From NCBI GenBank assembly GCA_963971425.1, contig OZ020519.1, positions 17,691,397 to 17,755,396 of the forward strand: a stretch of DNA of 64,000 nucleotides. The letters are read 5' to 3'. The notes under the pieces were generated by a model. That model was given only the letters and a program-made list of their open reading frames with translations. It was not told the DNA's origin and searched no databases. Within the stretch, counting starts at the first letter, position 1. Each line of letters begins with the position of its first letter. Position numbers and translations under genes: made by a program. This stretch comes from Bryoerythrophyllum caledonicum (taxonomy: Eukaryota > Streptophyta > Bryopsida > Pottiales > Pottiaceae). This document shows, piece by piece, positions 4,569 through 31,668 of the stretch.

Positions 4569-4571
4569 CAT
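1673..4571 (+). pseudogene. LINE reverse transcriptase and C-terminal region (interrupted)
   Basis: This continues the endonuclease frame. Reverse transcriptase motifs appear in order: NKAPGPERIP, HRPIALANTIYK, QEGFRAERST, motif A YVDFKNAF (about 2172-2195), motif B RGTIQGDTLSP (about 2346-2378) and the catalytic YADD box (about 2481-2492). A TAA lies at 2111-2113, and a frameshift near 2300-2330 moves the protein into the third frame, where it then stays open to 4571. A cysteine-rich patch (CLPECNGSCFNTCNMHANPC, about 3517-3576) follows. Near the end, FGSLGKAFDYKWDGIGYAHP (about 4432-4491) resembles the start of a PCIF1-like adenine methyltransferase fold, though without its NPPF motif. The frame ends artificially inside the inverted end of the large insertion, and the natural continuation is at 28931. 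Confidence 0.88.
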
Positions 4572-4602
4572 TAGAGAAGTCTTGGGGTCTTGGAAAGGCC
4601 CT
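4569..4602 (+). repeat. Left terminal inverted repeat of the 24.4-kb insertion
   Basis: It begins CATTAGAGAAGTCTTGGGG and continues TCTTGGAAAGGCCCT. It pairs with 28897-28930 read in reverse complement, with 7 mismatches in 34 positions. Confidence 0.75.
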
Positions 4603-5001
4603 TGGTGGGCAGCTGATGGAGCAAGCCGGGTACACTGCCACATTGGAAAGATGTGTTGGCATGCAATGTGCCACAGTGCCAAGTTGTGCTCCATGTTGCA
4701 AACTTCCTCCAATCACAATTGAGCAATGTTGAAGGACATGTGACCGTGGCATGCTGACTCTCGCATGCTTGAGTGGGCGTACTACAATATTTTATTTTTT
4801 TGGCGTCCTTTTATCCAAATTAAAATACTGAAGGTCGTCCTATCTAAGTTGATTAAACAAATTATACTCATATGGCGGGAATGATAATGAGTCAAGAAAT
4901 GAGTCGCCATTGACAGTCTTTCAGGGTTAAGGGTCGGTCGTCTAGCTTTGTCATAACACGTTTTTCTTTGCTATAGCACGATTTGCTTTGCTCTAGCAAG
5001 G
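4603..5001. other. Subterminal region of the insertion
   Basis: No gene is seen. It holds short GC-rich words such as GGCATGC and TGCCAC scattered as possible subterminal motifs. Similar words (GGGCAG, ATGAGCAAG or ATGGAGCAAG, CACTGCCA) occur just inside the right end, which fits transposase-binding subterminal repeats, but I could not align the two ends beyond the terminal repeat. Confidence 0.3.
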
Positions 5002-6225
5002 ATGTCTAAGCCAATAGAAGAGGTGCACAGTGTTGTGCTTTACAATGATATTGATGCTCGTGGGAAGTGGATTTCTCTTCGGGTTGAGATCGGATCATGG
5101 GTTACATTGAGAGCGTCAAGCAGGGGTCCATGGTCTCGGGACGCTCGGGTTCATGGCGTGGATTCCTGTGCAGGTGCTTGGAAAGCTCAGATTCTAGAAT
5201 TTTGATTCAAAGTGATGACACGGCGGTGCAAAGACATGCTTCAACTTGATGCGATAAAGGTCCGACATGCATATCAACGCCGACAGCTGCAGCTTGATCC
5301 AGCGGCTGCTACGAACGAGCCACGCTCGTGTAACTTGCTTTATCAGTCGTATTGGGATGATTGGGTTGCGCCTAAAGCTGTGCTGGATGTGATTCTTGTG
5401 CTGCACCATGAAGTTGGAGAGGCTGGACGCAACGGCCGCAGTCACAGACAACTGTTGGAGAATGGAACTTTTTTCTTGAAAGATGTCTGTGTTCCCGAGT
5501 CTAGATCTTGCTTGTACGGGAGTTTGGAGGAGTTGCCACTGCCCGGGCTTGACGATCCTAACTGGCCCTTCCCGGACATGCAAACATCAGAAGCTTTTCG
5601 AGCAAGGCTTGCAATTGACATTGCTGAAGCAATGAAAGGTGGAATAGGGAGTAAAGTTGCCCATGTGAAGTGGTTTATGCCTGTGCATGTGATGGTGGAT
5701 CTCTTTGCTGTAGCAGACAACATACGCCCCACAGCCACAATGTATATCCTCAAGACACCATCGGCCGTAGTTTTGAGCAGTTTGATGGACGTTGGATAGG
5801 ATGAGAAGTTTCAAACAGGGCAAGATGTTCTAAAGTCCATGGTTAGCAAGGCCAGCATGCTCTTCCGCTATCATTTAGCACGGCAGGTTTAATATCTGAA
5901 TTTTCAATACGTGCATTACAGAAAAGAGGGCACCAGATGGGTGCCCATCAACCAGGTGGTGATTCCACACATGATGCCCATCACGGTTGAATTTGGAGGT
6001 AACGAGTTGTCCAAGTTCGAGGTCAAATCTATTTGGCCAGTGTCCCACATTCGAGAGGAGATTTCCATTTTGCTACCTCGAGATGTCATCTCCGAGTACT
6101 ACGATCTTGTTGTAAAGCGCCCCGGTCTTGCCGATTTCAAGATCAATGCATGGTCAGAGCGAAGCACAGAAATTGGTGCCCTCTTGGTAGGGAAGTCTAG
6201 TACATTGAAAATGGTCCCATCCTGA
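5002..6225 (+). pseudogene. Unrecognised protein of about 407 codons, three internal stops
   Basis: One frame is coding-like from an ATG at 5002 to a TGA at 6223-6225. It is broken only by stops at 5203-5205, 5797-5799 and about 5890-5892, so it is a single decayed gene rather than three small ones. Notable stretches are QSYWDDWVAPKAVLDVIL, PLPGLDDPNWPFPDMQTSE, KVAHVKWFMPVHVMVDLF and KRPGLADFKINAWSE. I do not recognise a domain. It lies 430 bp inside the left end of the 24.4-kb insertion and points inward, as element-encoded genes often do. Its GC content is higher than the surrounding spacers. It could be an accessory gene of the element or a captured host fragment. Confidence 0.6.
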
Positions 6226-6544
6226 TGCTTATGCACATCACATGGTGTTTAGGCAAAAGCTTGCTTTAGACATTGAGATGAGGTTTTAAAATCGCAATTG
6301 TACTTGGTTTGAAAATTGCATTTGCAACTCTAATTCAATGTCTACAGTCATTGCATTGTTTAAGCATTTCTTTCTTCTAATTTGTATTGTGTAGCAATTT
6401 TGTAAGTAAGCAAGGAAAGTTGTTTACAAAGATGCAACATTAGCTGTTTTGAAAGAATGTTCTAGACTTTACAGCTTCACAAATTGAATTTGCAGTATCA
6501 TAAGCACTTAAAAAGTTCTAGACTTCACAACAACACAAAAGTTC
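6226..6544. other. Intergenic spacer, nothing recognised
   Basis: AT-rich sequence between two convergent pseudogenes. I see no gene, repeat or RNA in it. Confidence 0.4.
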
Positions 6545-7450
6545 CTATAGTACACGGCTTTGAACTGTGCCTTTGTTTTTGTTCTTCCCACCACTGAGGT
6601 CATTGAAAGGAATGTTGTCATCTTCAGGAACAGCCTGTAGGATGTTGGAGAAGTTTTCGCACTCGGCACGGTGATGTTCCTCCAACACGCCGCCAAGTTG
6701 AGCCACCCACGGATCGGCACTGCTACTAGCTATATTTTGCATGCCGACACTGCTTGTGCAAGATAATTCGGCAATAATCTTGCACAAGCCTTCCACTTGC
6801 ATGCGCGTTGCAATGGGCCCGAGCTTCTGCGGATTGCGTCGCTGGTTCTTGAGTCTTCACTTTAGCCGCTCCATTGCTTCCACGCACCAGTTGAGAGGCA
6901 CCCCGTAGGTGAAGGTGGCGTAGCACGCCTTCAGAACAGGCAAAGAATAATATGAGTTGTCAGGTTTATTATCGTATACTTAAAAATATTGTTGTCCAAA
7001 CAGTTTGAGTTGTTCCGCACTCCTGCAATTTGCCATTTCATAACGATTTGACTGGCTGTCAATTCTCCAAACGTCCTTCATTTCTTCATTGGTGATGTGC
7101 GGATAGTACTTGGAGACGTTGCTCACCAGCGGACCTTCACTACAGTGACCAACGGGCACCGTAAAGAAGTGACGCCCGTCTACCGCATTGCGCCCCAACA
7201 ACATCGATGCTGCAGCGAGCATACGTTCTCTAACATCGCTCCGGATATATGTGAGGTTGATGGGATCATCGAACTCCTCCCAAGGTGTCTCGCGGTGACT
7301 CGGGGCCGCACGATCATGTGAAGAGTCCGACCATGATCCGGAAGTGTCCGAAGCATCCAAATGGACTTCATGTTGCCCATGCAGGAGAAGTTGTCCACTG
7401 GAGCCCTTCTTGCGCTTCCGCAGTGCCTTCTTCTTATGACATGGAGTCAT
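6545..7450 (-). pseudogene. Internally deleted paralog of the coiled-coil/Cys-cluster family
   Basis: Read on the minus strand, the protein starts at 7450 with a Lys-rich segment and the conserved N-terminal domain (WEEFDDP, RERMLAAASMLLGRNAVDG, SKYYPHITNEEMKDVWRI, NRYEMANCRSAEQ). It parallels the gene at 12506-14118 almost motif for motif. A stop at 6980, further stops and a frame change follow. Then come RRNPQKLGPIATRMQVEGLC and, directly after a short Ser-rich joint, DPWVAQLGGVLEEHHRAEC. In the full-length paralog about 220 residues (the coiled coil and the Cys/His cluster) lie between these two parts. This copy has therefore lost the middle of the gene and decayed further. Confidence 0.75.
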
Positions 7451-7980
7451 CGTTACCTATGACAACAACAAATGGTTACTTGCTACAAAATCGAACTACA
7501 ACAAATTGCTACAACATTGAATTACAACAAAATTGTAACAACCAAAAAGTCACTCATAAAATTTGGTGTAGGAAGGACTATGCTAAATCAAGGGTGAAGA
7601 AGCCAACATTCGGCTGATTCAGCAGCTAACATTACACCAAATTACAACAACCAGGAACTCACCTCAAAAACTTGCTGCAGAAATGGCAATATCATACGAA
7701 GGGGTCGAGAAGCCAATACTGGCCTGATTGAGTAGCTGGCGTTACATCATGGAGCTATAGTACAATGTAGTCAAGCTAATGACTCTGAATCGTCGTTGCC
7801 ATAGTCACACCCCAAGGCAAATCATTATGTGAAATTAGATTTTAGCCTACTTTGAGCCATTTTTAAGAAATCGTTCAATGCTTCGTGAAATCTTTAATGT
7901 GAAGTAGAACCGTGACTAGATGGTTGAATGAAACTTCTAAAAGATTCTAAATGGCAATAACTTTAATGAAACTAATACCA
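7451..7980. other. Spacer upstream of the deleted paralog
   Basis: The first 300 bases carry words such as ACAACAAATTGCTACAACA repeated loosely. A region of short AT-rich sequence follows. No gene or clear promoter element is visible. Confidence 0.3.
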
Positions 7981-8097
7981 TAACTTAATTTAACTTGAAC
8001 TTTGTTCCGCTTAAACAATAAATGACTTTTGGATTGTTATGGATTAATGGTGATAGGTAAGCCCGCAACCATGGGCCCGCCTTTACCAGACGAGCTG
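7981..8097 (+). repeat. Inverted repeat arm, partner at 18113-18230
   Basis: About 117 bp containing TTAACTTGAACTTTG, GGTTATGGATTA-like, GATAGGTAAGCCC and CTTTACCAGA. It recurs inverted at 18113-18230 with scattered differences, and similarity tails off outward on both sides. Both arms lie next to AT-rich spacers, so they may be the ends of a 10-kb element or of a segment later inserted into the 24.4-kb element. Confidence 0.6.
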
Positions 8098-8232
8098 CCA
8101 TATAAAATAAATTAGAGAGGGTTCTCCAATCATTCTAAATAATTCTCACATTAACCTTTCAACAAATCATGCCAAACTATTATACATTAAATATCCACCG
8201 GTATACTAATTGTAAAGTATGCAATCAAGGTG

Positions 8233-8572
8233 CACTGAAAATCTCATTTGGTGTATCTACACTAATTGATTTATAGTTGCTATAATGTTTTATTCTTGAT
8301 TAATATATTTACCAGATTGTAGTCTTGTATCTACACTAATTGATTTATAGTTGCTATAATGTTTTACTCTTGATTAATATATTTACCAATTGTGACTACA
8401 ATCGGATCTGCCTCTTTGAGTAGTATAGATAGTTGTGTTCTTAGTAAAAATCTTCATCAAAAGTAAAAAGCAATAGCACTTCCAAGAACTCTAGTACTCG
8501 GAGGAGGCATGCGTGAATATAGCACTTCCAAATTATATAGTAAAAAGGAAACACTGAATGAGATTTTCAGTG
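8233..8572. mobile_element. MITE with CACTGAAAATCTCATT ends and an internal 74-bp duplication
   Basis: The left end reads CACTGAAAATCTCATTTGG and the right end is its inverse (AATGAGATTTTCAGTG). Inside, a 74-bp block starting GTATCTACACTAATTG at 8253 is repeated at 8327. The core (ACACTAATTGATTTATA, GAGTAGTATAGAT, CATCAAAAGTAAAAAG) matches the complete element at 43454-43670, so this is a diverged member of that TA-target family. TA flanks the right end, but the left flank is not TA. Confidence 0.65.
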
Positions 8573-9239
8573 TAGTACCACCAAACAATACACTAGTATG
8601 TCAACTACTATAAAATATTGGTCAATTCTAGTAAAGGTTGGAAATGATAATTTAATGACATTGATGGATAAAAACTAGCTATCACCTGATTTGACAAACT
8701 TGTGTACTAGGATAAGTACAACATTTGTACCACTACAATGAATGCATTTTTTAGTGTAGTTACATAATATTCTCAATAATACATCCTGATATCACTTTTA
8801 TAATATTTACTTATCTGTCATTACTTTTGTCATTTCAATTAAGTAATCCATACTAACATGACCGACGTGAGGGACACGTATCCAAAAATAGTATTGTGAT
8901 ACATCTGTAATGGCAGTCTAGGTTGGATGCATGTGGATCCTACCTAGAAATCCACGCAGTAATCTTTTAATGATAGCTTGAAACCTAGATTTCTCTAAAC
9001 TGCATAATAGATGAATTTGTAATAACTGCATAATATATGACTTTGTAGTAATGGACTGCTTAACATTATTTGGGGCCGGATCGAAGACTCTGGGGCCGGA
9101 TGGAAGGCTCTGGGGCCGGATTGAAGGCCGGATTGAAGGGAAATCTAGCCCTACTTCCATCCGACCCTAGGCCTAATGTAAATTGGCCCTAACACTATCA
9201 CACCCTTATATGAAAAAAGTCTCAAGATGGGCCGCAGAG
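8573..9239. other. Spacer, nothing recognised except a short GGGGCCGGAT triplication
   Basis: No gene is seen. At about 9071-9137 the words GGGGCCGGAT and GAAGGCTCTG are repeated three times in tandem, giving a small GC-rich island in AT-rich DNA. Confidence 0.35.
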
Positions 9240-10850
9240 TCTTGGAGACATTCTCATTATGTTGCAATTAGTTTACAAAATTTAAAATTTTTATAACAAC
9301 ATTCAAGAAGACAACAGATACATGAAGATATATTTTCTATTGCCATAGGATACAATAACTTACTATTACCCGTCATACTAATTACATATGGATTATACTA
9401 TTCTGGATTATACTATAACGCTAAATAATTTATTTATTTTTGGATTATTCCAATCATACTATTCAAACTTATCTTATCAAATTTGCAATTTAATACTATA
9501 TACTTATTATATTATTTAAACTACAGTATATACAAATTAAACTCTTAAGGATAGACACCAATTATGTTAATTATCATTTACACTATTCATAATACCAACT
9601 AATTACACATTTATACTAAGTACAAATTATTATATTTAGTACCAATATAAATGCTATAGATTGATTACCAATATAAATTATTATATTTAATATCATTATG
9701 AGCTATATTGTTTACGTATATAAGATTTATACTATTTACTAGTATATACAAAAATATAAACACTACGGTACTAAATAAAGCTTTGATATTATGTTCTAAT
9801 TTAATCTATTATAATATTTATCAATTATAATATCAATGCAATGTACCTTTTGTAAAATGTATAATATTTATACTAATTATATTGAAGACTAATTTTCTCA
9901 TTTACCCTACGTCGTAGTCCCTTTCGTTCATAGTTATTTCAAAATAGGGAGTTGTCTAAAATTTTGGATATTTGAAGGGAATCAAGATTTGCCACTAGGC
10001 AATACTCGTGGAATACTAGGTTGACATCCATGCAATGTATAGGTGATATCCGTCCAATATCGAAATGATACCATGTAGTATCAATTTTGTCGAAAACACA
10101 TGTGTGGTGAAAAATAGTCATTCCCGTGGATAGGTGTTGAAAGCGACCACAATGTAAAATATATTGAGTATCATTTTTACTAATCATGTTTTACTATAAT
10201 AAGGCTATTTATTTATGTACCAATTATATTAATTATAGTGCAAAACTAACTTTATTGATACATTAATTATACTATTTATATCTTACACAAACTAGTGACT
10301 ATCATTTCACTAAGTCCTAATTATACCTTTTATACTTTGTACAAATTATACTTTGTTATTAGTATGTATTACTAGTAAGCCTTTTATATCATGTCACAAC
10401 TATACTATTTACACTATGTTAGGATTTGACCTTTTAACCCTCAATTGCCCAAAGTCTCCTCCGCGGACATTTTTAGTTCGCATACGGTACCACGTCCTCA
10501 ATTTTAGGCATTATTTTCTAAGATTTTTTATTTCATTGACAACTTTTTAATAGCTTCGCCTAGACACAAATTTCGTAGAAAATTGACTTACGGTTCAAAA
10601 TTTACAATTTATTTTCACTTAAATATACAAATAGTGCAGCAATTTGGTGTGACACATCACAAATATAGTCGCAAAACATTTATAACTTCTAAAGTGAATA
10701 GAAACTCAACTTTTTTTGTCCATCATACTACTAAAATCATAAGCCCCCTCTGAAAGTCACCTGTACTTAGAGTTTTACGTTTACTTTTACATTTAATTTT
10801 ATTTTGAGTTTTACTTTCATTTTGAATTTGAGTTTGACTTTTACTTTTCA
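9240..10850. other. AT-rich spacer with a possible MITE at about 9905-10170
   Basis: Long runs built from TATACTATTT, ACTAATTATA and ACCAATTATA words, with no coding potential. At about 9905-10170 lies a short GC-richer block with ACCCTACG..GTAGTCCCTTTCG at one end and GAAAGCGACCACAATGTA at the other. It matches the element at 14473-14718. A similar AT-rich tract occurs at 16900-17900. Confidence 0.45.
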
Positions 10851-10854
10851 TCTA

Positions 10855-11030
10855 GTGCGGATGAAATCGTATGCGGCGGATGAAAAAATGTGCAACAGAT
10901 GAAAATTGTCGCATCAAATGAAAAATAAGATGTGGATGAAAAACAGACTCTGGATGAAATTTTTGCAGCAGATGAAAATTTTCATAGTGGGTGAAAGTCT
11001 GAAAGATTGACTGTGGATGAAATTTTATAA
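10855..11030. repeat. Degenerate GGATGAAA array
   Basis: About ten GATGAAA words, mostly preceded by G, spaced irregularly by 12-30 bases. It looks like an eroded tandem repeat. No gene function is evident. Confidence 0.5.
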
Positions 11031-11182
11031 TATACATTAAAATGGTTGGACCAATGCGTTGCAAAGCAAGTGCCAACCGCTAGTTTAAAATAAAGAAATA
11101 TTCCTCTTAGGAAAGGAATGGAAATCTTTGCATCTATAGTGCAGATTTTTTATTTTCAAAAATATGAGAAGGAAAGTGCACT

Positions 11183-11282
11183 GTTGATTCACAGCACATA
11201 TCGTAGGTGAACCTCTGGTTTGGCACCTTAATGTTGATTCACAGCACATATTGTAGGTAAACCTCTGGTTTGGCACCTTAAT
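11183..11282. repeat. 50-bp tandem duplication
   Basis: The block starting GTTGATTCACAGCACATA at 11183 repeats at 11233 with two differences. The short motif GGTTCACCTACGGTAG at about 11610 is a further related piece in the opposite orientation. Confidence 0.7.
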
Positions 11283-11387
11283 GCCAAGTAATTAATTAAA
11301 GTGAAAAAATGACATTCGGCATTCAAAATAACAATAGTGTAATTTTCGGCAAGAAGTCATAGACTAGTGTATTTTACCTACTTTGAT

Positions 11388-11452
11388 GTCCATGGGGATT
11401 GAACTCAAGACCTTGGGATTCTAAATCCAAGAGTTGGCATGCATGTGATGCC
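11388..11452 (-). other. Degenerate tRNA-like 3' half (possible SINE head)
   Basis: On the minus strand there is an anticodon-arm-like stretch (TTGGATTTAGAATCC) followed by a T-arm-like GAGTTCAATCCCC. This resembles the 3' half of a tRNA-Leu with loop triplet TAG. There is no recognisable acceptor or D arm, so it is not a functional tRNA. Confidence 0.2.
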
Positions 11453-12505
11453 ATGAATGAAGACCTTTCCAAGCCTTAATCCGCTTTGATGTCTCTCAAA
11501 GTGACAAATGTTGTAAATATACATTTCCAATAAATTCAGCATTTTCAAAAAATTCTTTTCCACTTTAATTCGGCATGGACTTTTCTAATTATTTTAAGCC
11601 GAACTAGAGGTTCACCTACGGTAGTTGCCTTGTAGGATTTTTGAGTATATCTTCTACCCCTCTTCTACTTCTTGGTGCACATGTGCCTAATATGATCCTT
11701 TTCAAGTTAGAATAATAGATTCATAGCCCATACTGTAAAAAGTTGCCATAGAAGGTGGTTGAAGTTTGTTGAAGGTATTTAGTATGACCTCAAAAAAAGA
11801 GTCTATGCCTCCCTTCAAAAGAAAATATCTTTCGATCGGTGCGGTCAAACATATCAAAATATAGTACACACACTCTTATATAGTACACACAACATTCCAA
11901 ATTTTTGATCACTGTGTCCCGAAGAAGTTTCCGAAGGCGTTTCCAAGATTGAAATTTCAAGTTCTGAAGGTGCTTGGAGGAGTTCCCGGAGTGCCCAAGG
12001 ATTTCTTGTAACGTTCCCAATGGGTTCCTATTAGGAAGTCAATTTTACTTTTTGTTTCGTGGGATCCATCATCAGCCGTTGGAGTCCAAATGGATTTACA
12101 TTTGCACTCATGTGCGTGCGTAGACCTTTTTCAGTACAATCATATCATTGACGCCTTGTTTGATATAGGCATCAGGTAAAGGTTTATGGTACAAAACATC
12201 TCCTGTACTAAGAGTCTGCACATTGGGACACATACAAGTACCTAAAATTTTTCAATTATACAAAATTCAAGAAGATAAAATCCAAACGTAATATCCTCAG
12301 ATGCATCATAATCGTTTTAGCATAAAGTTTTAGCTTCCCCACCGTGAATCCACTGTAGTGAGTTACTCAAAATGAAATATTTGAGACTTCAGAGCGTCAA
12401 CTACCTGGCGACAGCAGAACCTATGAAACAAACGCACTGAAACAACATCTTCAACTACAGATTACAGACTCTATACACAAATGCGATAGAAATTGACATC
12501 GTTAC
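11453..12505. other. Spacer, nothing recognised
   Basis: Moderately AT-rich sequence with no convincing ORF, RNA or repeat. It is the 3' flank of the minus-strand gene at 12506-14118. Confidence 0.35.
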
Positions 12506-14118
12506 CTACAATTTCACAAACACATCCAACTTTGTCAACCCAACAACTTTTAGATTCCCCTTGTTGTCGCCTACAATGACTTGAGTGTCTCCAACCGAAT
12601 GGAGAGGAAGATCTTTCTCTTCTTGAATTTGCTTGAGAATAGTGGCGATGAAGTCGCACTCGGCACGCCCCTGCATGTCCATTTCTCCGCCAAATTGCGC
12701 CACCCACGTAGGAGCAAGGTGGATCGGTGATGAAGCAAGGTGCACATCCTTGCACCGCCTGCAACGAAAGTTTTTGCTAGCAACTAATTCAGCAACACAC
12801 GCCCAATGGAGAAAACAACCACAACTACAAAGGACAGCAGCTTTTGCCACAAAGCCAAGGTTACAATACGCACAGATTTGAAGGGCTGGGGTGCCTAAGG
12901 GGGGAACAAACTTTGCTTGAGGATAATTGAAGACATGCTTTGGCTTTAGTGTCAAATCTGCCTGTGTTGCTCGCTGATGTGCTGCTTGAGCATCCCGTAG
13001 TGATGCGAGCGCCTCGTCGTGCTTCGTGCGCCGCTCCATCAACACTGATTTCAAATTGCACCTCTCCTGACGGGCAACCTCCTCCATTTTGCGGTAGAGT
13101 GTGATTTTCACCTGCAAAATTGTCGCTTCTGCGGCTTTCGCAAGATAATCTTCATCGCAGACTGCAGGATCCCGAGCTAGACGGCATGCCTCCTTCGAGG
13201 CGGCAACTAACGCACCTTCCCACTCTTCCACCTCCACATCCTTGCCATTTGCGGATGCAAGTTCATAGGCAAGCTGAAGTTTTGCTGACATCTCCTCCAC
13301 CTCGGCTGCAACAACATCCACTTTTGCTAGAGCGGCGTCCACATTTGCTTCAGCTAGTCGGGAAGTCACTGCGGATTCCGCTACGAATCCAGTACTAGGC
13401 TTCGAGGCCAGGTCCTTGATAATGTTGCACAAACCCACCACTTGGGCGCGCGTCGCAATGGGACCTAGCTTTTGAGGATTTCGGTATTTTCGATCTGTCC
13501 GTTTCTTTAGCCGTGAGAGCGCTTCCGCCACCCAATTCACAGGTTTCTTGTACAAAATGTGAGCATAACATGCTTTAAGAAATCGCATAGAAAAGTACCC
13601 ACTATCAGGCTTATTACCATAAACCTTGTAGTACTGCATACCAAATTTTTGGGCTTGCTCTGCGGACGCACAATTTGTAATTTCGTAGCGGTGCGGCAAA
13701 CCACCCACCCTCCACACCACCTTCACAAGGTCGTCGGTCACGTGCGGGTAATGCTTCGAAACATCTTCTAGAAGAAGTCCCTGGTCACAGAGTCCAACGT
13801 GCAATTTGAAGAACTCGGGCCCATTCACAGCAGCGTGCCCCAGCAACATTGGCACTGCAACAACCATACGCGCTCGAACACCATCTTGGATCTCTGAGAG
13901 GTCCACCGTCTCATCGAACTCCTCAACCTACTTCGGTGCTTCCAAATCCCGTTCTTCCCGTTGCGGAGCTTCAGGCACAGAAGTGACTTGCGATTTCCAG
14001 GCTCGCCATGGCTGGTTGGTTGTTCTTCACTTGAATTGGCCGCAACAAACTTCCGCTTCTTCGCCATAGCTCCTGATTTCCCGCGAACAGGCTTCTTTCC
14101 TGTTGTCATCGTGGCCAA
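12506..14118 (-). pseudogene. Coiled-coil/Cys-cluster (RING-like) protein of the giant element
   Basis: Minus-strand gene, start probably ATG at 14118 with a basic N-terminus (MATMTTGKKPVRGKSGAMAK). A frameshift near 13980 and a TAG near 13926 precede an open stretch of 466 codons (13906-12506). Order of parts: a conserved N-terminal domain (ARMVVAVPMLLGHAAVNGPE, SKHYPHVTDDLVKVVWRV), a linker NPQKLGPIATRAQVVGLC, an Ala/Glu-rich coiled coil (roughly residues 170-320 of the open part), a Cys/His cluster of form CxxC..CxCGCxxHxxC..CxxC (about 343-384), and a tail beginning WVAQFGGEMDMQGRAEC. The cluster resembles a RING finger with an atypical second half, hence a possible ubiquitin-ligase or DNA-binding role; that is inference. 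It is the longest of three paralogs in the window. Confidence 0.7.
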
Positions 14119-14472
14119 GATACTATTAGTTTAGTAAAACAGACACACAAGTACAGCTACTGAAATGTGTAAAACGAGTATGATTGTAAAATAAGCGTGC
14201 GAGATGAGCTCAGCGTTGGCACAAAATTTTGGAACAACGGTGAATTAACAATGGCGTAGTGAGCTAGGTGAATCAACAATGGCGTTGCAGCAATCATTGT
14301 TGAAGCTTAAATGACATTGTATTCGGATGGGACATTTTGCTTGTGCAACTTCAATTAGAAGTCCGGTTGATAGGCCAGGTTTAGGCCCTACTCTTTATTG
14401 AAATCAAGTTCAAGGTTATGCATATGGTAGAATGATTTGAGATGATGAAGTATCATGTCATTGTGCATACTA
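14119..14472. other. 5' flank of the coiled-coil/Cys-cluster gene
   Basis: AT-rich. Contains GTTGCAGCAATCATTGTTG (14294-14312), which recurs at about 16807-16826. No TATA box stands out. Confidence 0.3.
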
Positions 14473-14718
14473 TGTAATACCCTACGCTATGGTCAGTTTC
14501 GTACATAATTAATTCAAATGGGGACTTGTCCAAAATTTTGGAAATTTCAAGAGATTTGACTAGGCGATACCTATGTAATACCAAGGTGACACCCGTGCAA
14601 GATCTAGGTGATACTCGTGCAATACCTATGTGATATCCATTGTGTTGAATCAATGTGACCAAACAAAAAATGCTTCAACACTTGCCTGCCGAAACTGACT
14701 GTAGCGTACGGTATTGTA
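14473..14718. mobile_element. MITE with TGTAATACCCTACGC ends
   Basis: The left end TGTAATACCCTACGCTATGG and the right end (inverse of TACAATACCGTACGCTACAG) form imperfect inverted repeats of about 29 bp, both followed inward by TCAGTTTCG. Length is 246 bp. The interior (GATACC, GTGACACCCGTG, GTGATA words) recurs at 37465-37708 and in poorer form near 9905-10170 and 17920-18080, so this is a four-member family in the window. Confidence 0.65.
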
Positions 14719-14768
14719 AGAAGTAGATTTTTGCAACAATAAGTGGTTGTTTAGGATATAGGTCACTA

Positions 14769-14945
14769 CACTAAATATCACTTTTAGTGTAGTGTACACT
14801 AAAAGCAAACCTGTACACTAATTGTGAACTGGGCAATTAGTGTAGTAACAAATCAATACACTAAATGTCAACTACAACACTATTTGTGAATTCCACTTAA
14901 GATTGCAATATAAATTTTTTCACTTGTGCACATTTAGTGTATCAA
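14769..14945. mobile_element. Partial TA-target MITE
   Basis: Begins CACTAAATATCACTTTTAG after a TA, followed by TAGTGTAGTGTACACTAAAA and several CACTAATTGTGAA-type words. It parallels the left part of the element at 34824-35408. No right end was found, so it appears truncated. Confidence 0.5.
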
Positions 14946-16409
14946 GATTAGAAGAAGATTATGTGTACATTTTGAGTATAAGAAGCGACAAAGATCTAAG
15001 TACATTCAGAAAAAAATAACATTTGGATAAATTAAATTAGAATTTAGATATGGAATGAAGGTGAAATTGCACCAAAAATTGATTTGGCAAATAAATGATT
15101 GAGAGTAAATAGAACCTAGATATGGAAGAAAAGTGGAATTGCAAAAATAGGAAATATTTGAAAATAGAAGATAGGAAAAATAAAATGTTGGATTTGAAAG
15201 GAATGTGAATTGGCAACTTTAAACATTTGAGAATGGATACATGGAAATGGAAACATTTGAAAATGGAAACCTTTGAGAATGGAAACATTTGAAAATGGAA
15301 ACATTTGACAATGGAAACATTTGACAATGGAAACATTTGAAAATGGAAAGATTTGAAAATGGTAACAATTGAAGAAATAAACATTTGAATAAATACACAT
15401 TTAGAAAGAAGACATTTGAAAAGAATTTCATTTGGAAAAATAAACAATAGAAACATGAAACATTTTATGAAGTATATGTTTAAAAAATGTACCTTTAACA
15501 TTTGGATGTTTAGTTACCTTTAACAAAAAAAAATGTACAAAAAAATTCAATGTTAACAAAAACATTTTGGAAAAAATGTACCTTGTTAAAAAATTCAATG
15601 TTAACAAAAAAAAACTGTACAAAAAAATCCAAAACTTTTGACATTTGGATTTAACAAAAAAAAATGTACCTTTAACATTCAGAATTTTTTTTTGAAAAGG
15701 TGCTTAAAATTTAAAGTACTAAAAAAGTAAAAGATTCAAGAAGATAACTTTTGAGAAAGGAGACATTTGAAAAACAAAATTTATGAAAAGAGAAGGGATT
15801 TGAAAAGTAAGGGTAGAAAAAGAAAAGGATTGAAAAAGTAAGGTTTAGAAAAAGTAAGAATATAAGAAGTAAAAGTATGAAAAGTAAGGGATTGATAAGG
15901 TAAGGGTTATAAAAAGTAAAGTTTAGAAAAAGTAAGGGATTAGAAAAAATAAGAGATTGAAAAATAAAAGTTAAAAAAAAATGGGTAAGAAAAAGTAATG
16001 GATTGCCAAAGTAAAGGTTAGGAAAAGTAAGGGTTAGAAAAAGTAAGAGTGAGAGAAAGTAAAGATTTTAAAAGTAAAAAGTTGAAAAAAATGGTGAAAA
16101 GGTAAAAAGGTAAAAAGATTGTAAAAGTAAAAAAGTTGTAAAAGTAAGAAGTTGAAAAGTAAAAGTTGAAAAGGTAAAGATCAGAAAAGTAATAAAATAA
16201 GTTAAAAGTTAAAAGTTGAAAAGTAAATAGTTGAACGAGTAGGAAGTCTAAAGATTGATTGAAACAACTTTTTTGTTGTTATAATGAGAGAAGATTGGTT
16301 CTGATTTTAGGTTGTTGTTATAAGGAAATTGTTGTTGTATCAGATGCTTGTATAAAATGCATCTATGTAAGCTTGGGATGTGTTTACAATTATCCAAAGC
16401 ACAAAACCT
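14946..16409 (+). repeat. Purine-rich low-complexity tract with a 16-bp minisatellite
   Basis: From about 15220 to 15380 the unit GAAACATTTGAAAATG is repeated about nine times with small changes. Onward to about 16250 the plus strand is almost pure A/G, built from GAAAAAGTAAGG and TTAGAAAAAG words. Long ORFs predicted on the opposite strand here are Phe/Ser/Lys-biased artefacts of the repeat. Such tracts can form triplex DNA, but no function is shown. Confidence 0.75.
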
Positions 16410-19844: not shown

Positions 19845-20475
19845 TGTTAGAAAGAGAATATTAAAAATATCAAATCCTTTTGAACGATTTCTTTGAATTT
19901 TGAGGTTTTGGATGTACCAAAATTGTTTGACTGATTAAACTCTAAATAATATCCACTACGATTCATTGAATAAATCGATTCATCAAGGAATACAGGCGTT
20001 GACTCATCCTTAACCTCAATGTACATACTTGTGCATAAACAAGTCTTTTTGAATTGTCAAGTAGTACAAGAGTCAATTTTTGTATGATATTTGTAATTAT
20101 AGTCTCTTTCCAGTGGTCTCTAAAAAGCACAGTTTACATTGTCTTTTTGAATTGTCAAGAGACTATTACATATTTGTAATAGTCTCTTTCCAGTGGTCTC
20201 TACAAAGCACAGAATTTGCACTCTTGGGCATTTTTAGAGACCACTGGAAAGAGACTATTACAAATATCATAACCTTTTGATCGTTTTCTTTGAATTCTGA
20301 GGATTTTTTGGGTGTACCAAAATTATTTGACTTATTAAACTCTAAATAATATCCACTACTATTCATTGAGTAAATCACCACATCAAGGAGTACAGGCGAT
20401 GACTCGCCCTTCATGTCAATGTACATATTTAGTGCATAAATAAGTCTTCTAGAATTTTCAAGCAGTACAAGCTTG
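19845..20475 (+). repeat. Dispersed repeat R4, copies 2 and 3, with direct and inverted 40-bp blocks between
   Basis: Two R4 copies (19845-20072 and 20215-20475) flank two direct copies of TATTTGTAAT.ATAGTCTCTTTCCAGTGGTCTCTA (about 20087-20133 and 20170-20213). One inverted copy lies at about 20232-20268 and could form a cruciform with the second. The arrangement suggests local duplication. Confidence 0.6.
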
Positions 20476-20559
20476 AGACTCAATTCTACACACTAAGTAG
20501 CCTTCATTGTTTTTGTCTTACCACTCATTACAGCTTCATCAACTTCGTGTGTCTCAACT

Positions 20560-20985
20560 TCACTGATTTTGTCTCATCGTTCTTTATCATACTTCAACAT
20601 TAGCCTACATTGATTTTGTCTCACCATTCTCTATTCTATCTCATCATTCGTAACTTCGTCAACTCACTCTATCGCAACCTTCAGTGAATTTGTATCACCG
20701 CCAGTTTTTATCACGCTTCGGCATTTAGTGTAGCTTTGACATCCACTGTAGCTTGCAGATCCAACATCCTTCACTAATTTTCTCTCATTGTTCTTTATCC
20801 TGCTTCAACATTAGCCTTCACTGATTTTGTCTCATCATTCTCTACTATATCTCATCATTCACTGTAACTTCGTTAATTCCTTTTTTGCAGCCTTCACTGA
20901 TTTTGTGTCACCGCAAGTCTATATCATGCTTCAACATTCACTGTAGCTCTGTCAATTTTGTGTGTAGTAGCACTCACTGATCTGG
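20560..20985 (+). repeat. Two-unit tandem repeat just upstream of the plus-strand coiled-coil gene
   Basis: Units of about 208 bp, marked by TCATCGTTCTTTATCATACTT at about 20576 and TCATTGTTCTTTATCCTGCTT at about 20784. Each contains CTTCAACATTAGCCT and several CACTGATTTTGTCTC words. They end 58 bp before the predicted start codon, so they may include or displace the promoter. Confidence 0.55.
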
Positions 20986-21042
20986 CAACAAGTCATACCA
21001 CCTGCAACAACACGTGGGAACTAACCAAAGTGGTAACCCAAG

Positions 21043-23563
21043 ATGGGCAGACGTGGGAAGCTAACCAAAGTAGTAATCCAAGATGTTGACGAGATTTCTA
21101 GTGATCGCAGTGATGAAACACTTCCCTATTTTCCTCACATTGTGAATCCTAGCATATGGGCGGACGCTTTTGACCTCAAGAACTTAGGCCCCAATATTAG
21201 GAAGCAGTTAACGATGAATGCGCCATTCCTTCTTGGTGACAACCGTTGCTACAGCACTGAGTTCTTCCATGAAGTGGGAGGGCTCTCGATGAAGGGCATC
21301 CCATTGAAGCGCTTGAAGGAAGAGCATAATCTTCCCTTGAAGGCAATTGTCAGCACTTATCCTCTGAACAAGAATGAGAACCGTCATCCACTAAGACACA
21401 TGGACGAATAAATTGCTGCTACAGCGTTGAGGATGTATCAACGTGTGTATGGTGGAACAGTCCCAGACAATGGAGAATTTGGGACTGCGTTTGTGAGAGG
21501 TCTTATGCTCGAAGGTAAGAAATGGAAGATCAATTGGGCTGAAGGCGCAACCGATATAGCACAGGTATGTTTCTTGCTATAGCAGTGACTTTGGGTACAT
21601 GGCAAAATCCATGTGCCTTAGCGAAGTGGTTTAAACACCATTATTTGCTATTGGTGAGATTATGTTAAATTAAAATAGTGTTGCATTCCTTGACACTCAC
21701 ATGCGGTAACCTACACACACATGAGACTAGTTTGTCTCACTGATTGAACATTGATGTAATGTGCTCAGTGACCAATCTAAATGACACTGTTGCAAGTGTC
21801 CTTTGTTCTAATGTAGCAAGTCTATCCACACGGAATAGGAGCATGCATGCTTCGAGGTTATTTGTTGGACCTAGTCCTCAAATATGAATACACATTATGT
21901 TGTGCTTGTGCGAAATCACAATGGTCCATTCTCATCAGCGGTGTGCTTCAGGGAAACCCTAAACCGTATTGTGCTCTTGCAAACTCTGAATTCCCAGTAT
22001 ATTTGGCACTGAATATCTGTATTCTAAACATGTACTATGCTTATGCAGGGCCGCCTCAAGAATCCGAGTAGCAATCCGGGAAAGCTCACTCCACCATGCT
22101 TGCGTGAGCAAATCCAAGCGATGCTGAATGTGTTCCGGGATTTGCTAACTAGAGCCCTCTCGGCAGCACCGAAGGGCGCAAGCAATGCACAAGTGGAGCA
22201 AGGCGCGCCACGCGTTGGCTCCATTGTGCGAAAACCATGCGCTTCAAAGACAGCCTCTAACGCAACACTCCGCGAATCACCACTCAAGCCTGCTGCAATA
22301 CTGAAGACTATGTCGGACACACCAATCCGCGAATCACCACCGAAGCCTGTTGGCGCAGTATCAAAGAAACGCGAGAAGAAAGATGGCGAGAGAATGATGG
22401 AAGCTCTAGTCACTGAGCCAACTCTCAAGGGGGCAGCAGCGTTGATGAAGCAACGTGAGAATATAGAAGTAGAGTTGCTTCAAATTGGGTCACAACTTCA
22501 ACATGCAGAGGCGGAGTTGGCGAAGCGACAGACGAGGAAACAAGAGTTGGAACGCGGTGAGGAAGAAAAGTGGGAGGAGTTTGCAAGTATCCAACAGTCA
22601 AAGCACGACATGATCTTGGACGACCATTGTAAGAAGGTGGTAGATGCTCGCCTACGTGCTGTGATGGAGGGTGCCACAGCTGTGTCTACCGCATTGACAA
22701 ACTTGTCACCTGAGATCATACATTGGACATCTGTTGCTGGAGGGCTGCGCACCAAACTGCTTCCGTTGCAGGACGCCATTGGCAACCTTACTGCAAAGAT
22801 TGACGTCCTCCTTGTTCAGGAAAGCTGTATTCGTCCCAAACAATTTTTTTCTGCATTTCCTGTGAATTGTGAGGGAATGGTACCGCTAAAGCATGATCTC
22901 TCATGCGTCAGCTGCGGACGCTTTTGGGCAGAGATGGCTTTAGCAAACCTGCCTTGCGGATGTTTGCTTCATCCATCCTATTTGTTTCAAGTTGCACTCA
23001 GCTCTCACCCATGTTGTCCTGGCTGCAACGTTGCGCCCACTGGAGGATGGATGGGGCAGTGGGGCGTCAAGACCAAGACCGCTGTACAAGAGTTTGCTGC
23101 AGCGGTGCAGAAGGAGGGATGGGCACCTCCACTAGGCCGCCTGAAGATGAAGTTGGAAGATTCCAAACGCTGACTTTCCGCCTCATTACTCGACTATCCC
23201 TCAAAACGAGCATGTCCCCCATTACCTAACAAGACTTGGTCCGACATTGCGGTCCCTAGCGATGATGTTCTAGCAGGTCCTGTTGTAGCTGTTGGTGGAT
23301 TTGTAGCGCCAACAACAAGTCATGTTGTACATACGCTCGGTGTTCTAGCAGCAGGTCTTGTTGAAGTTGCGCCTGACGAAGTAGCACTCGGTGACGTTAG
23401 TGATGTAGCAGCCGCAGACGTAGAAGCAACCGGAGAAGATGTAGCAGGCTGTGATAATGTAGCGCCCGCCCAGGGAGCAGCCTCCAATGAACAGCGCGAT
23501 GTGAACAACCATGTACTACCAGGCGAGATAGTTGTACTTCTCACACCAGAAGCTCTACCTTGA
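21043..23563 (+). pseudogene. Second coiled-coil/Cys-cluster protein, one intron, two premature stops
   Basis: Exon 1 runs from ATG at 21043 to about 21564 (donor GTATGT) and has a TAA at 21409-21411. Exon 2 starts after the acceptor TTATGCAG at about 22048. Parts in order: an N-terminal domain matching the minus-strand paralogs (NAPFLLGDNRCYSTEFFHEV, LRMYQRVYGGTVPDNGEFG), a Pro/Ser/Lys-rich linker with two RESP.KP repeats, a coiled coil, the cluster CVSCGRF..LPCGCLLHPSYLF..HPCCPGC, and a tail with WMGQWGVKTKTAVQEFAAAV. A TGA at 23171-23173 ends the frame, but it stays open for 130 more codons to 23563 with Val/Ala-rich, Asp-rich sequence (DVLAG, DVSDVAAADVEATGEDVAG), so the original protein may have been longer. 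It is convergent with the transposase-like gene. Confidence 0.7.
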
Positions 23564-24324
23564 AACTATGCGGATATCCTCAAGATTGCAAAGGATGTCG
23601 CCATGGAGGCTGATCCTGCTTCTAGTCCACCATGATGTTCTGCTATGGCATCTAGTTCGAGTGAACAACTTCATCAGTGGAGCACTTTGGAGTGTGACGA
23701 CCCCGAAAAGTCATGACTGGCGGCTGTGAGGCATCTAAGTTACGACCTACATATGTTTGACGTTTACTCTTCTAACTGAGTTAATTACTACTTCATTTTG
23801 ACGTTTACTCTTCTGACCAAGGCATCTACTATTACTTTATATTGTAGTCCATTGGCCTCTTATAATGTTCAGAATGTTCGAAGTTTAGATGTATTTTGAC
23901 TATTTCTAGGATGTGACTGTAATATCTACAAGAATCAATATATATACCATATTTAAGAGATATTTGAGAGATATCACTATGGGGCAGCAAATGTCGTATC
24001 TCTATTGACAAAAGACTAACTACTGCTAATTCTTCTTTTATGATTCATTTTGTGATTCTTTTTCACCTCACAAATTTTCTTTTTGTGGCAATGCACAACG
24101 ACTGCTCCTGATCTAGTGCATGCTTGAGTTTCAATATCCACGTTCTAAATAGTTCAAATAGAATGTATCTTAAACTGTTATAAGCTTTTACATGTGCCTC
24201 TCATAATACGATCATAAGCTTGAAAATGTCACTGATTGATATCAGGGATAGAATCTCTGCTAGTTTGAGAGTCTGAGCTACACTAGCCATCATCACATGG
24301 GCTTTCTCTGTTGTTGTTGGCCTC
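23564..24324. other. Intergenic space between convergent genes, nothing recognised
   Basis: AT-rich DNA between the 3' ends of the plus-strand coiled-coil gene and the minus-strand transposase-like gene. No ORF, repeat or RNA stands out. Confidence 0.4.
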
Positions 24325-26751
24325 TCAAATATCATTGCATCCATTGTCAGCACTACCAATGGGTTCTTCTATCTCTGGAGCTTCCGCACTACCAATGGGT
24401 TCTTCTGTCTCTGGAGCTTCGGCAGGTGCATATCTATTGCCATGTCGAGTACGTCCTTCTCGCCACGCTTCACATGCTTCTCGTGCCCTAGACGCATACC
24501 AAACATCGCGCCTACGAGACTTTGAGGCAATGATTCTTGGGTCAGGCAATGTTTGCTCAGCTTCAAGTATTCGTTTTTGCAACTTTGCCGCATATATGTG
24601 TTGTATATTCCTATACCAAAACTCATACTGTTGTACAATGACACTAGTCCTGGCTACATGTCTCTCCATGTTGTCCATGGTACTGGCTAGATGCCTTTGC
24701 TGCAAGGTGGGATTTCTCCATCCCTTGACAGTTCCAAACAGACAAACTCCCATATTTTCCAACGAACCAGGGTCAATGCTTCACTAGTACATGCTGCAAT
24801 CATTGGGAGCACAAATAGAAACGTTATTGAAGGGTTAGCTTTACTAAATGTATGTCTATAATAAAAGCTTTCTTTAACCATTTGTACAGATATTTCAAGC
24901 TATATGCTACAACAACAACCATAACTTAAGCTTGGGTCATAGTGATGACTTACAATGTAATGTGTCACGTGACCCTCACCATGGGCAGCAACGAAAGCCC
25001 TTCCGAAAGCCTCAATCAACACTCTACAACTCTTCCTCTGCTCATCTGTTAGAACAAGCCCTGTGAAGTATGGTTGCAATGCCTCAAGGGTCTCCCACAC
25101 TCGTCTGCGCTTCACCCTTGCATGGCCGTTTTCTAGGTTATTTGATTCTGAAGCAAGCACGTCCTTCCAAACCCGGTCATTTCCGGCCCATGAACTTGGT
25201 CCAAACAATTTGCTTGCCAAAACTCCGCCAATGCTCGGCTTTTGGACCACATTCCCTATTTTTCCAGATAGTTGCGGGTCTTGCTTTAGCACACAATTGG
25301 ATCCCTCTACACCAATTGCAGACATAGTTTTCTCCATCGCATCAATTGCAGCCAATTTCCTCTCTCCATCTTGCATGTTCGAGACGAACATGAAGTGAAG
25401 ATGCAGAACTTTCTCCGCAATACAAACCAGTGCATGCAAAGTACATACATGTGTCGTGCTCAAGGGAATTGGCAAAATCGGTTTCCATCGAGGATGTGTG
25501 TCGATGTCACACGGTGCACCTTGAATGCTTGTTGCAAACAAACCTCCTTCCTAGGATCCTTTTCCGCGAGAGGAGGTTGCCCGCTCTGCTTTAGCCTCCG
25601 TGCACGTCCTTAAACGTTCATGCTTTTGCTCGCAATATATGCAATTCATCTTGCATGACGGTCCATGTTGTAGCCCATACATACACTTGATCGTCTTCAT
25701 ATCTGCACTTAGATGCCACTCAATTGGAAAACTCCCATAACTTCGTACTTCTAGTTGTTCCCCATTGGATTGTGCTGTAATAACATCTGGAAACCTTGTT
25801 TGTTGAAACACCCATTGCAAGATATCATACGATTCTTTCTCCACTTGAAAGCAATCTATTGGCCAAATTTCTTGCTCAGATTGCACCGAAAAATATCTCT
25901 CATCATTTTTCTAAATCTCTGGATCTAGAGCTCGATTCATGAGTGTGAGACTCACTCGCTCAAACTTCTTTCCATGAAGCACTTCCGCCTCGTCCAACTT
26001 CAGCACAAATATAAGCGGTCCATTCTTGCACTCTGATATGAAGAAAAGTTAATGGGAAACACTAAGCATCAAAGACAGTTACAAGGCCCTCCTGCAGCAA
26101 ATTAAATCATATAAGAAATTAGATTTTGAGGCTCACCTTCAACTGTGATGTCATAGAACAACACCATTGATCGTTGAACGACTTTAATATCAGCAAAGAG
26201 GTTATTTTTGTCGTTGAGAATAACCTCCTTTGACTTTCTAACCACCTTCTTACCGACCCTTACTTCTGGAATGATTCGACGCCCATCTATGTGGTAATAC
26301 TCTCCAATGAACTGCGGGAGCTTACTATTCATATTCCTTCGCAATTCTGCCACTTTTTTACTGGACGGCAAGAGACCTCGCTTCATCTCAAGTGCTACAG
26401 ATGTCACTCAATGCTTAATAACCTTGCACACTGCATGGTATCCTCTATGTGTTACATTATTGCCATCACACACTCCCAATATTACTTCCTCTATCAACTC
26501 CCTTTGAATCTTCTTAAAAGCAGTCTACGTCGCTACCGCATTTGCTTGACTCATCCTCGTTTGCTCTCCTAACCTCAAAGCCTCACCTGCGGACAAAACA
26601 CTTGCAATAGCACGTGCTGTAGCAGTCTGAGAATCTCTTGCCCCAAACAATCTTTTCCTCTCCCCGTGTGCTTTGTTCCATCGCTGCAACTGACTGACTA
26701 GTCGAGGTTGAATCTGTGCTTGCAATATAGTCCGACGTCGTTTAGCATTCC
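24325..26751 (-). pseudogene. Transposase-like protein, spliced, decayed
   Basis: Three exons on the minus strand: 26751-26137, 26032-24954 and 24793-24325. Junctions keep frame (VEG donor GTGAGC to ECKNGPLIF; HVTHYI donor GTAAGT to HVLVKH). Exon 1 starts NAKRRRTILQAQIQPRL and contains CDGNNVTHRGYHAV and DGRRIIPEVRVGKKVV. Exon 2 contains FVLKLDEAEVLHGKKFERVS, WPIDCFQVEKESY, EWHLSADMKTIKC, a CKMNCIYCEQ motif and STTHVCTLHALV. Exon 3 contains YGSLSVWNCQGMEKSHLAA and YEFWYRNIQH. Asp in LKLDE, Asp in LSAD (about 97 residues later) and Glu in GMEKSH are candidate DDE residues; this is inference. Stops: two in exon 1, two in exon 2, one in exon 3, plus a frameshift near 24655. The superfamily is not named with confidence. 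It is the best candidate for the mover of the 24.4-kb element. Confidence 0.6.
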
Positions 26752-27624
26752 CTGATCATGCCATGCACGTTGTAAAACCCAATTCAGATCGATAGATTAC
26801 AAGAAAATGAGAAGGAAAGGAAATTGACAAGAATGAAGGGGGCCTCTCAAGCACAATTTATGACCAGGCCATTTGAACCACAACCCCCTCAAGCACAACA
26901 GGGAGGGCTCTCATTGCACCGCACGCACCAAGCTCATCTAAGCACAACCCGACACAAGGCCAAGGCAATGGCACCGCTAAGAAAACACAATCACCATTGA
27001 ATTTAGCATAGACTTTAGCACATGATCCAACATTTTATTAGGCATTGCATTGCGCAAAGGTAATCAAAAGCATCAGGCCTTTTTTTTTGGTTTCAGAGTT
27101 TTAGCCAGATTTGGCCAGAGTGGCGACACAAACTTTTTGACGACGGCAAGTTTGGCGACACAAAGTTTCTCTCAAAACCATACAAAACCAAATTTTCTCT
27201 ATAAATATCCATTTTGGAGAATCCATCTCTATAAACATAGAATTGTACATCCTTTTTGGCGACAAGTTGGAGTTCATTAGTAGCAATATGGCGATATGCC
27301 AACGGCCATCAATGAAGTTTTGGCAATATAAAATCTTAAGATTTCCCAATTTTTCGGGAATATTCTATTTTTGGAAATAAAATTTCGCTTTTTGGCCTCA
27401 GGTCGCCAAAAAAAAAAGGCCTGAAAAGCATGCATTCAGCAAAGACAAACAAAAGCATGCATGGACCAGCTGTATATTTCTATTACGATTTGTATCCAGC
27501 TGTACTAGTGTTACAGGCCATGAATGTGCATTCCACAGTACAATACTAGCACAGACGAGCCAATTCTCGTTGAGGATGAATTCAGCATAGATCTGCTTCA
27601 ATATCGGCACAGAAGATGAGCCGC
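26752..27624. other. Intron or spacer between the coiled-coil exon and the transposase exons
   Basis: No coding sequence is supported. A splice acceptor (GATCAG, about 26752-26757 on the minus strand) opens the next exon. A complete hAT-type MITE occupies 27074-27423. Confidence 0.4.
27074..27423. mobile_element. Non-autonomous hAT-type element (350 bp) with perfect 8-bp target duplication
   Basis: Ends are CAGGCCTTTTTTTTTGG and its inverse CCAAAAAAAAAAGGCCTG. The flanks are identical 8-mers, AAAAGCAT at 27066-27073 and 27424-27431. An 8-bp duplication with CAGG...CCTG ends is the hAT hallmark. The interior has no coding capacity. The perfect duplication suggests a fairly recent insertion into the 24.4-kb element. 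Confidence 0.9.
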
Positions 27625-28296
27625 CTAAGAACCTGGTGCAAGTTCATCTACGTTCTTCATGCTGGAGGTGTGCACACGCTTTCGGAGTCCCCTTGGAGTT
27701 TCCACCATGTATTTTACATTTGCTTGTAGCTCCATATACGATGCCCTAGATCTTGACAATTCAGTCTCCAAAGAAATTATTGTCCCTTGGCTTTTTTGAG
27801 CTGCTGCGGCAAGTGACATCCTCAATGCTTCACATATAGCTTCTAAATTTCCCACTTCGCTTTGCAATCGCACACGCTCCTTTACAAGCTCAGTTGTGGT
27901 GTTTGACAAATTGTCAACTACACCGCGATGGACCTCATATTCTTGCCGAAGATGTCGCATGTCTTCTTCGTATCCTCGAACCATCGACTGCAAGCTCATC
28001 GCTGCACTGTTCAAGCGCTTTGTGTATCCCGACATACCCCGCTCGCCGCGGCACAAAAAATCCAAATATTCTTTTGTTGTCCTAAAGCACGGAGGAGAAT
28101 TCGTAGCTGGATCCACTGGATATAAGCCCCCGTCAACCCAAAGGTCAATGTGAGTTTCACCATTTGCCCTCCTTGTTGCAAAGCTTGCACGACTACTTTG
28201 ATCATCTAAGAGCACACCTCTCTTGATAACTGGAGCATACCTAGAGCTCAACCTCACATTGGGAATATAAGTATTTGTAACGTCCCTCAGTGCCAT
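27625..28296 (-). CDS. Coiled-coil protein of 223 residues, possible first exon of the transposase-like gene
   Basis: Minus-strand ORF, start at the ATG at 28296 (MALRDVTNTYIPNVRLSSRY), which fits better than an earlier in-frame Met because the extension is Phe-rich and short. The N-terminal 90 residues contain HIDLWVDGGLYPVDPA and EYLDFLCRGERGMSGYTK. Residues about 95-200 form a long coiled coil rich in Glu, Leu, Ser and Arg (EEDMRHLRQEYEVHRGVVDN, KERVRLQSEVGNLEA). The end is a basic segment RGLRKRVHT then DELAPGS. It is the only undamaged frame among the element's genes. It lies about 600 bp inside the right inverted end. No family is recognised. It may be separate or spliced to 26751. Confidence 0.55.
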   Translation of the reverse strand: MALRDVTNTYIPNVRLSSRYAPVIKRGVLLDDQSSRASFATRRANGETHIDLWVDGGLYPVDPATNSPPCFRTTKEYLDFLCRGERGMSGYTKRLNSAAMSLQSMVRGYEEDMRHLRQEYEVHRGVVDNLSNTTTELVKERVRLQSEVGNLEAICEALRMSLAAAAQKSQGTIISLETELSRSRASYMELQANVKYMVETPRGLRKRVHTSSMKNVDELAPGS

Positions 28297-28896
28297 GTTG
28301 AAAGGACGTAAAAAAAAGGATGAGGCTAGTTTCATTAGAGAATGAGGCTAGGACACATAATACCATGTAAAATCTCACACGACTTTTCAAAGTGACTGTT
28401 GTAGCAAAATTCAGAGAGATAACTGAGAAAGACTTGGCCCATGTTGGACATGCCACATGCCACACCTCACAAGGCTTCCCGCCATTTTAATTATCTCCTT
28501 CCCGCCCTCCTACGCCTTGTTGGCATATTATACTAATAGTTACCTAGTACACAGATGCCTAATTGACATATTTAATTAACTTTCACTTAGTACAGTAGCT
28601 TGACTTTGAAGTTAAAAATTGTTTTTGGGAAGTACAGCTCATGAGCGTCTGATTATATTATTTTGAGGAAGGACACCCTAACACCCTACAGACGAATAAA
28701 ATAGAGTTAGTTGATTGCTGCCACGATGGCCAAAATTGCCAATATGGCTCTGATCTGTGCGCCACACGATGTACATCCATGTACATGCATGTGGTACATC
28801 ACGCTTGCTCATGATGGCAGTGACTCTGCCCGCAGCCTCGTAATTGCTGCCCATGCATCAACAATACCAAATATGACCTGCCCAAATCACCCTTGC
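28297..28896. other. Right subterminal region of the insertion
   Basis: No gene. The last 200 bases contain inverted and direct words such as GTACATCCATGTACATGCATG and GCTGCCCATGCATC, comparable in style but not alignable with the left subterminal region. Confidence 0.3.
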
Positions 28897-28930
28897 AGGG
28901 CCTTTTGGAGACCCCAAAAAGTTTCTAATG
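28897..28930 (-). repeat. Right terminal inverted repeat of the 24.4-kb insertion
   Basis: Reverse complement begins CATTAGAAACTTTTTGGGG and continues TCTCCAAAAGGCCCT, pairing with 4569-4602. Confidence 0.75.
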
Positions 28931-31659: not shown

Positions 31660-31668
31660 TATATAAAG
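31660..31668 (+). promoter_or_regulatory. TATA box of peroxidase A
   Basis: TATATAAAG, 144 bp before the start codon, conserved at the same distance in copies B and C. Transcription should start about 30 bp downstream. Confidence 0.7.

Follow-up and report, generated by a model that had tools for sequence, protein, structure and literature searches.

Nearly all cut-and-paste DNA transposons leave a short duplication of fixed length at their target, and annotation programs depend on that duplication. In the CMCT clade (EnSpm/CACTA, Mirage, Chapaev, Transib, Plavaka, ESTA and Lanisha) the published description gives CA..TG ends, motifs in the order D-D-C(2)C-H(3-4)H-E, and target duplications of 2–5 bp, and it also reports 7–8 bp duplications for the KDZ elements Kyakuja, Dileera and Zisupton (PMC12730594). 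Spy makes no target duplication and prefers AAATTT targets (PMC4482050). Here we describe an element of 24,362 bp (positions 4569..28930) in a 64,000-nucleotide window of the moss Bryoerythrophyllum caledonicum (C7:17691397-17755396; positions without a contig label are those of the window), which belongs to a family of giant DNA transposons with terminal inverted repeats (TIRs) that are likely to insert by Asp-Asp-Glu (DDE) chemistry with zero stagger. Members of the family are approximately 18–24 kb before nesting and have the ends CATTAGA..TCTAATG in common, and they are inserted at several target sites that lack a common motif, with no target base gained or lost at the sites read. Genome searches refer to the window's own genome (437 Mb), and the copy labels C1, C2, C3, C4, C7, C9, C11 and C15 are contigs of that genome.

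The element interrupts a long interspersed nuclear element (LINE) that runs on the plus strand from before position 95 to approximately 30820 and is broken at 4568/28931. The 5′ part (95..4568) encodes a reverse transcriptase and the start of a PCIF1_WW domain, and the 3′ part (28931..30820) encodes the end of PCIF1_WW followed by an RNase H-like stretch (E 0.0003, below the Pfam cut-off), the insertion point lying within PCIF1_WW. An earlier note, written from the sequence alone, had read this interval as a giant transposon splitting a LINE, and its observations of reverse transcriptase followed by RNase H, of A- and C-rich composition on both flanks, and of a reading frame restored by joining 4568 to 28931 all hold, with PCIF1_WW, which it did not mention, placed between the other two domains. 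The interior does not have the A- and C-rich composition of the flanks. We take PCIF1_WW to be a cap methyltransferase-type domain, and the Pfam label is carried by 17 of 19 relatives of the host LINE.

Joining the flanks restores the LINE register as N-I-T-Y-L-V-L-P-D, and no extra residue is present at the joint in any of the 12 relatives aligned (of the 19 found). When the joined 245-residue LINE query was compared with the genome (best 150 of 5183 first-look candidates scored), the three top rows had 92–93% identity over exactly 735 nt, and many further rows were 735 nt, with some of 732 or 744. In the three best uninterrupted copies, 93, 96 and 94 of 100 bases agree with the joined window flanks, and there is no gap; the insertion is therefore exact, adding 24,362 bp with zero target bases duplicated or removed, and the missing target duplication that the earlier note had found odd is real. 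This DNA comparison is the strong test of the joins. The PCIF1_WW profile is a weak one, as the scores are nearly equal (41.9 bits for the direct join, 40.6 out of frame, and 43.3 for the left part alone); the match extends 3–6 residues beyond the joint if in frame and ends before it if out of frame.

Two other placements of the ends were rejected. An AT dinucleotide duplication (4571/28930 kept) breaks the LINE frame and leaves a right-side match to the empty copies of only 15–16 of 50 bases. Retention of CAT (4571/28931) is in frame and scores slightly better against PCIF1_WW (43.5 versus 41.9 bits), yet it introduces an extra codon that is missing from all 12 aligned LINE relatives and from the three genomic copies.

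The 34-bp TIRs lie precisely at the LINE break, the left (4569..4602, plus strand) beginning CATTAGA and the right (28897..28930, minus strand) finishing TCTAATG, and the left matches the reverse-complemented right at 27 of 34 positions. When the 261-bp edge stretches were shuffled under a Markov model, 2 of 2000 shuffles scored as high, as did 17 of 4951 random pairs of places in the window, which contains real inverted duplications; these controls leave aside the exact placement of both ends at the LINE break. A search with the left kilobase (best 40 of 71 candidates scored) gave 44 match rows, with eight rows representing seven close places at 94–100% identity, all with left ends at CATTAGA, and 36 diverged rows at 68–79% identity; a search with the right end gave 61 rows. 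The first base is identical in all seven close copies and the last in all five that are complete, the window copy being counted in both cases.

The five close copies with both ends are those in the window (24,362 bp), C15 (24,417 bp), C9 (20,861 bp), C2 (44,216 bp, including a nested insert of 21,130 bp) and C1 (42,273 bp, including a nested insert of 18,221 bp). Compared in blocks, the others have ~88–97% identity to the window copy. Over the three blocks examined, the close copies differ pairwise by 1.9–5.9%, and apart from the closeness of C2 to C15 there is little sub-structure, as if following a single burst. A sixth, diverged copy on C4 (18,060 bp) has the same ends, with 70–81% identity in the matched end regions, and matches genes A, B and T (described below) with their order and strands unchanged. 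The C11 and C7 (22.53 Mb) copies contain the left end only within the stretches taken and fall outside the both-end count. The C3 copy was left out because it is nested and ambiguous, its left end lying inside gene T of another copy; by eye, the family left end at C3:9857295 is within a match to gene T exon 1, and family members thus insert into each other.

Both avenues that the earlier note had offered for checking its reading, other copies with the same termini and internal genes and an uninterrupted LINE, have led to positive results, and together the other copies and the empty site support its interpretation as a giant DNA transposon, here complete. The copies also refute the idea that misassembly or chance joined unrelated pieces beside the LINE, since independent ones on other contigs have the same ends and an unchanged internal order.

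At the six junction pairs the direct repeats measure 0, 0, 1, 0, 1 and 0 nt, and none of the six copies with both ends is flanked by a target duplication as long as 2 bp. The junctions (tat|ctt, cta|ttt, ggg|gaa, ttg|aaa, tct|tta and aaa|tca) have no common motif by eye. Four of the six sites (window, C9, C15 and C1) have uninterrupted relatives, and at the three where the junction letters were checked (window, C9 and C15) the flanks are joined without a base gained or lost. At the C9 site (best 40 of 1061 candidates) some rows cover the 300 query bases in exactly 300 nt, the remaining scored rows being a few bases shorter or one longer, and three uninterrupted copies match 71–73 of 80 bases across the joint without gaps. 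For C15, the top two rows each span 201 nt, with 100% and 99% identity, and one uninterrupted copy is identical at 201 of 201 positions; most of the other 38 rows are 202–209 nt, and one 202-nt copy shows no difference across the joint, which places its extra base elsewhere. The C1 evidence consists of match lengths: query bases 1–297 are matched over 297 nt in four rows, and the top row and others differ by one to four bases.

Pieces found nested inside these copies provide a control. Six of nine show duplications of 3–8 bp: taat, cacta and cctttcca for the three large inserts, and ttgcacgt, atgac and tgt, judged by eye, for smaller ones; the pieces C9a, C9b and C11a have no clear duplication. 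Since the duplications of nested elements are visible, the method can detect duplications.

The nested pieces include further large elements. The 21,130-bp insert in the C2 copy is itself a giant transposon, the second here, with inverted repeats that match (AACACCATATTCG..) and the 4-bp duplication taat, and the 18,221-bp insert in C1 is a third giant insert with the 5-bp duplication cacta. The C7 copy at 22.53 Mb contains a giant insert of 19,373 bp with CAGGGTTGTC ends and an 8-bp duplication, presumably hAT-like by its ends and duplication, and the C11 copy has a 3,068-bp insert with ends similar to those of this C7 insert.

Gene T, the putative transposase gene, has four exons on the minus strand. 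Exon 1 (27628..28347) is an open reading frame (ORF) with a coiled coil. It can be aligned to P0041, a metagenome protein, at its N-terminus (E 3e-15), and in P0041 the exon 1 part and the core are in one reading frame. Exon 2 (26137..26755) contains in-frame stops, as does exon 3 (24954..26032) in the window copy; exon 3 encodes the catalytic core with D..D and C(2)C. Exon 4 (24328..24793) encodes the HVLVKH..E motif and has a stop and a frameshift in the window copy, and it is open over the stretch read in all six other close copies. The window copy is predicted to be dead because of these stops and the frameshift. An additional piece of ~350 bp within intron 1 (27073..27424) is missing from all five other copies spanning the place.

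The core has 47 relatives at 30–88% identity among 5.8 billion proteins, including a named fern protein from Adiantum nelumboides (P0047; 59% identity across 17% of the query). At least 117 rows in the genome match the core, rows being pieces, and seven of these are free of stops over at least 336 of 363 residues. The first aspartate is conserved in 41 of 42 rows with a residue at that column, the second in 47 of 47, and the two cysteines in 45 and 44 of 46; the H(4)H and E of the last exon are present in seven of seven close copies. The second aspartate is 20 residues ahead of the first cysteine, and the last histidine of HVLVKH is 20 ahead of the presumed glutamate; the corresponding distances in RAG1 are 19 and 20. 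The order of the motifs suggests that the gene T product is an EnSpm/Transib-like enzyme, a DDE transposase with an RNase H fold.

Integration by a recombinase, or by a single-strand or circular-intermediate route, would be free of duplications without DDE chemistry, and the zero net bases at three sites, with fitting lengths at a fourth, agree with such a route. We nevertheless consider it improbable, as no recombinase or Helitron-type Pfam match is present in seven of the ten element ORFs of at least 150 residues, nor any above chance level in the 47 transposase and eight gene B sequences, no target motif is seen, and the long inverted repeats and the acidic D..D..E set favor a DDE enzyme. 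Size, several genes and inverted repeats are also features to be expected of an endogenous virus or a Maverick-like element, which is a far more remote prospect: the same seven ORFs have no Pfam match to a capsid, polymerase, ATPase or integrase, and Mavericks leave 6-bp duplications. Overall, the Pfam scans of these ORFs, the transposase family and gene B gave nothing decisive.

Several points weigh against a zero-stagger DDE transposon. The DDE fold and chemistry of gene T are suggested by motif order; its core and the 47 relatives have no Pfam match, with chance-level hits in single relatives, and in the PDB a weak coiled-coil match (E 0.038) was all that was obtained. In the last exon, the H and E motif is known from the close copies alone, and a second H(4)H pair upstream, HICTLH, is also nearly invariant, so that either pair may be the one that counts. 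The claim of zero duplication covers six copies, four with uninterrupted relatives and three read at the joint; at C9, C15 and C1, many uninterrupted relatives are a few bases longer or shorter than the joined query, and in the one such copy read, at the C15 site, the difference is away from the joint. The 0–1 matching base in six of six copies departs from the 2–5 bp duplications of the CMCT clade, and the cut-and-paste mode is inferred.

We nonetheless favor zero-stagger insertion by a DDE enzyme, in which the product of gene T would excise the element at its CA..TG ends and attach these ends to target phosphodiester bonds that lie directly opposite each other. With zero stagger there would be no gap to fill and therefore no duplication. 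Genes A, B, B2 and C would then be accessory, with possible roles in DNA binding, regulation or ubiquitin-type functions.

The close copies hold the same gene set, save one without gene B. Gene A (5002..6222, plus strand; ORFs 4957-5202, 5206-5796 and 5893-6222) is present in all six other close copies and in 36 diverged match rows in the genome, and could be assigned to no family by Pfam or by a homologue search within the window's genome. Gene B (12509..13927, minus strand; 473 open codons) encodes a coiled coil and a RING/PHD-like Cys/His finger, with weak RING/PHD hits in Pfam and matches to NSMCE1 chains at E 0.0008; it has seven relatives, the Cys/His pattern is invariant in all eight aligned sequences, and 92 genome rows match. 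It is missing from the C9 copy, where the region itself is lacking. Gene B2 (6548..7456, minus strand) is a shorter paralogue of B with 49% identity (E 4e-32). Gene C (21037..23560, plus strand; ORFs 21037-21408, 22028-23170 and 23174-23560), a distant RING-like paralogue of B with weak similarity (E 0.002–0.005), is present in all six other close copies.

Inside the element, 15200-16250 and 19906-20430 contain AT-rich repeats with a 16-bp period and a 400-bp tandem pair. Elsewhere in the window, three closely similar peroxidase-like genes, one of them inverted, were recognized by eye at 31531-33120, 40405-42225 and 48861-50519; class III peroxidase-like and copia-like readings, also recognized by eye, give the window the look of plant nuclear DNA.

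The element was not found in print, the literature covered being open-licence papers, which exclude Repbase. Lanisha, reportedly described by Maumus, McDaniel and Carey in Repbase Reports in 2020, is the main possible prior name. Its authors are moss researchers, which speaks for this name. That the element belongs to a described CMCT lineage, possibly Lanisha, with zero duplication as a property of the lineage or a subfamily, is in our view unlikely, even though the CA..TG ends and the motif order fit the published clade description, since that description gives duplications of 2–5 bp (PMC12730594). Moreover, Transposase_21 (PF02992), the plant EnSpm/CACTA domain, has no hit in the gene T core or its 47 relatives, and none of the best 150 of 420 PF02992 candidates in the genome falls at the element.

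A giant multi-copy family without target duplications would escape annotation programs because these depend on the short duplication, and the family offers a direct test of a transposase that joins both DNA ends at opposed positions. Compared with known systems, the element resembles the KDZ elements as a eukaryotic DNA transposon with extra genes but differs from them in lacking 7–8 bp duplications and a Pfam match to any DDE family. With Spy, of the PHIS superfamily, it shares inverted repeats and zero target duplication, whereas none of its six sites is AAA|TTT and it has no PHIS-type Pfam match. Its likeness to the CMCT clade consists of CA..TG ends, inverted repeats and, tentatively, gene T motifs in the order D, D, C(2)C, H(4)H, E, with no profile match to a member; it differs in having no detectable Pfam match and in carrying RING-like paralogues. 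The EnSpm-like CMCT clade and Spy are the nearest known lineages, and the element fits the definition of neither. We tentatively suggest, with the balance slightly toward doubt, that it represents an undescribed superfamily of giant eukaryotic DNA transposons, spread in land plants including ferns, with a DDE-type, stagger-free enzyme that has no target preference and with a conserved RING-like protein family as its usual companion.

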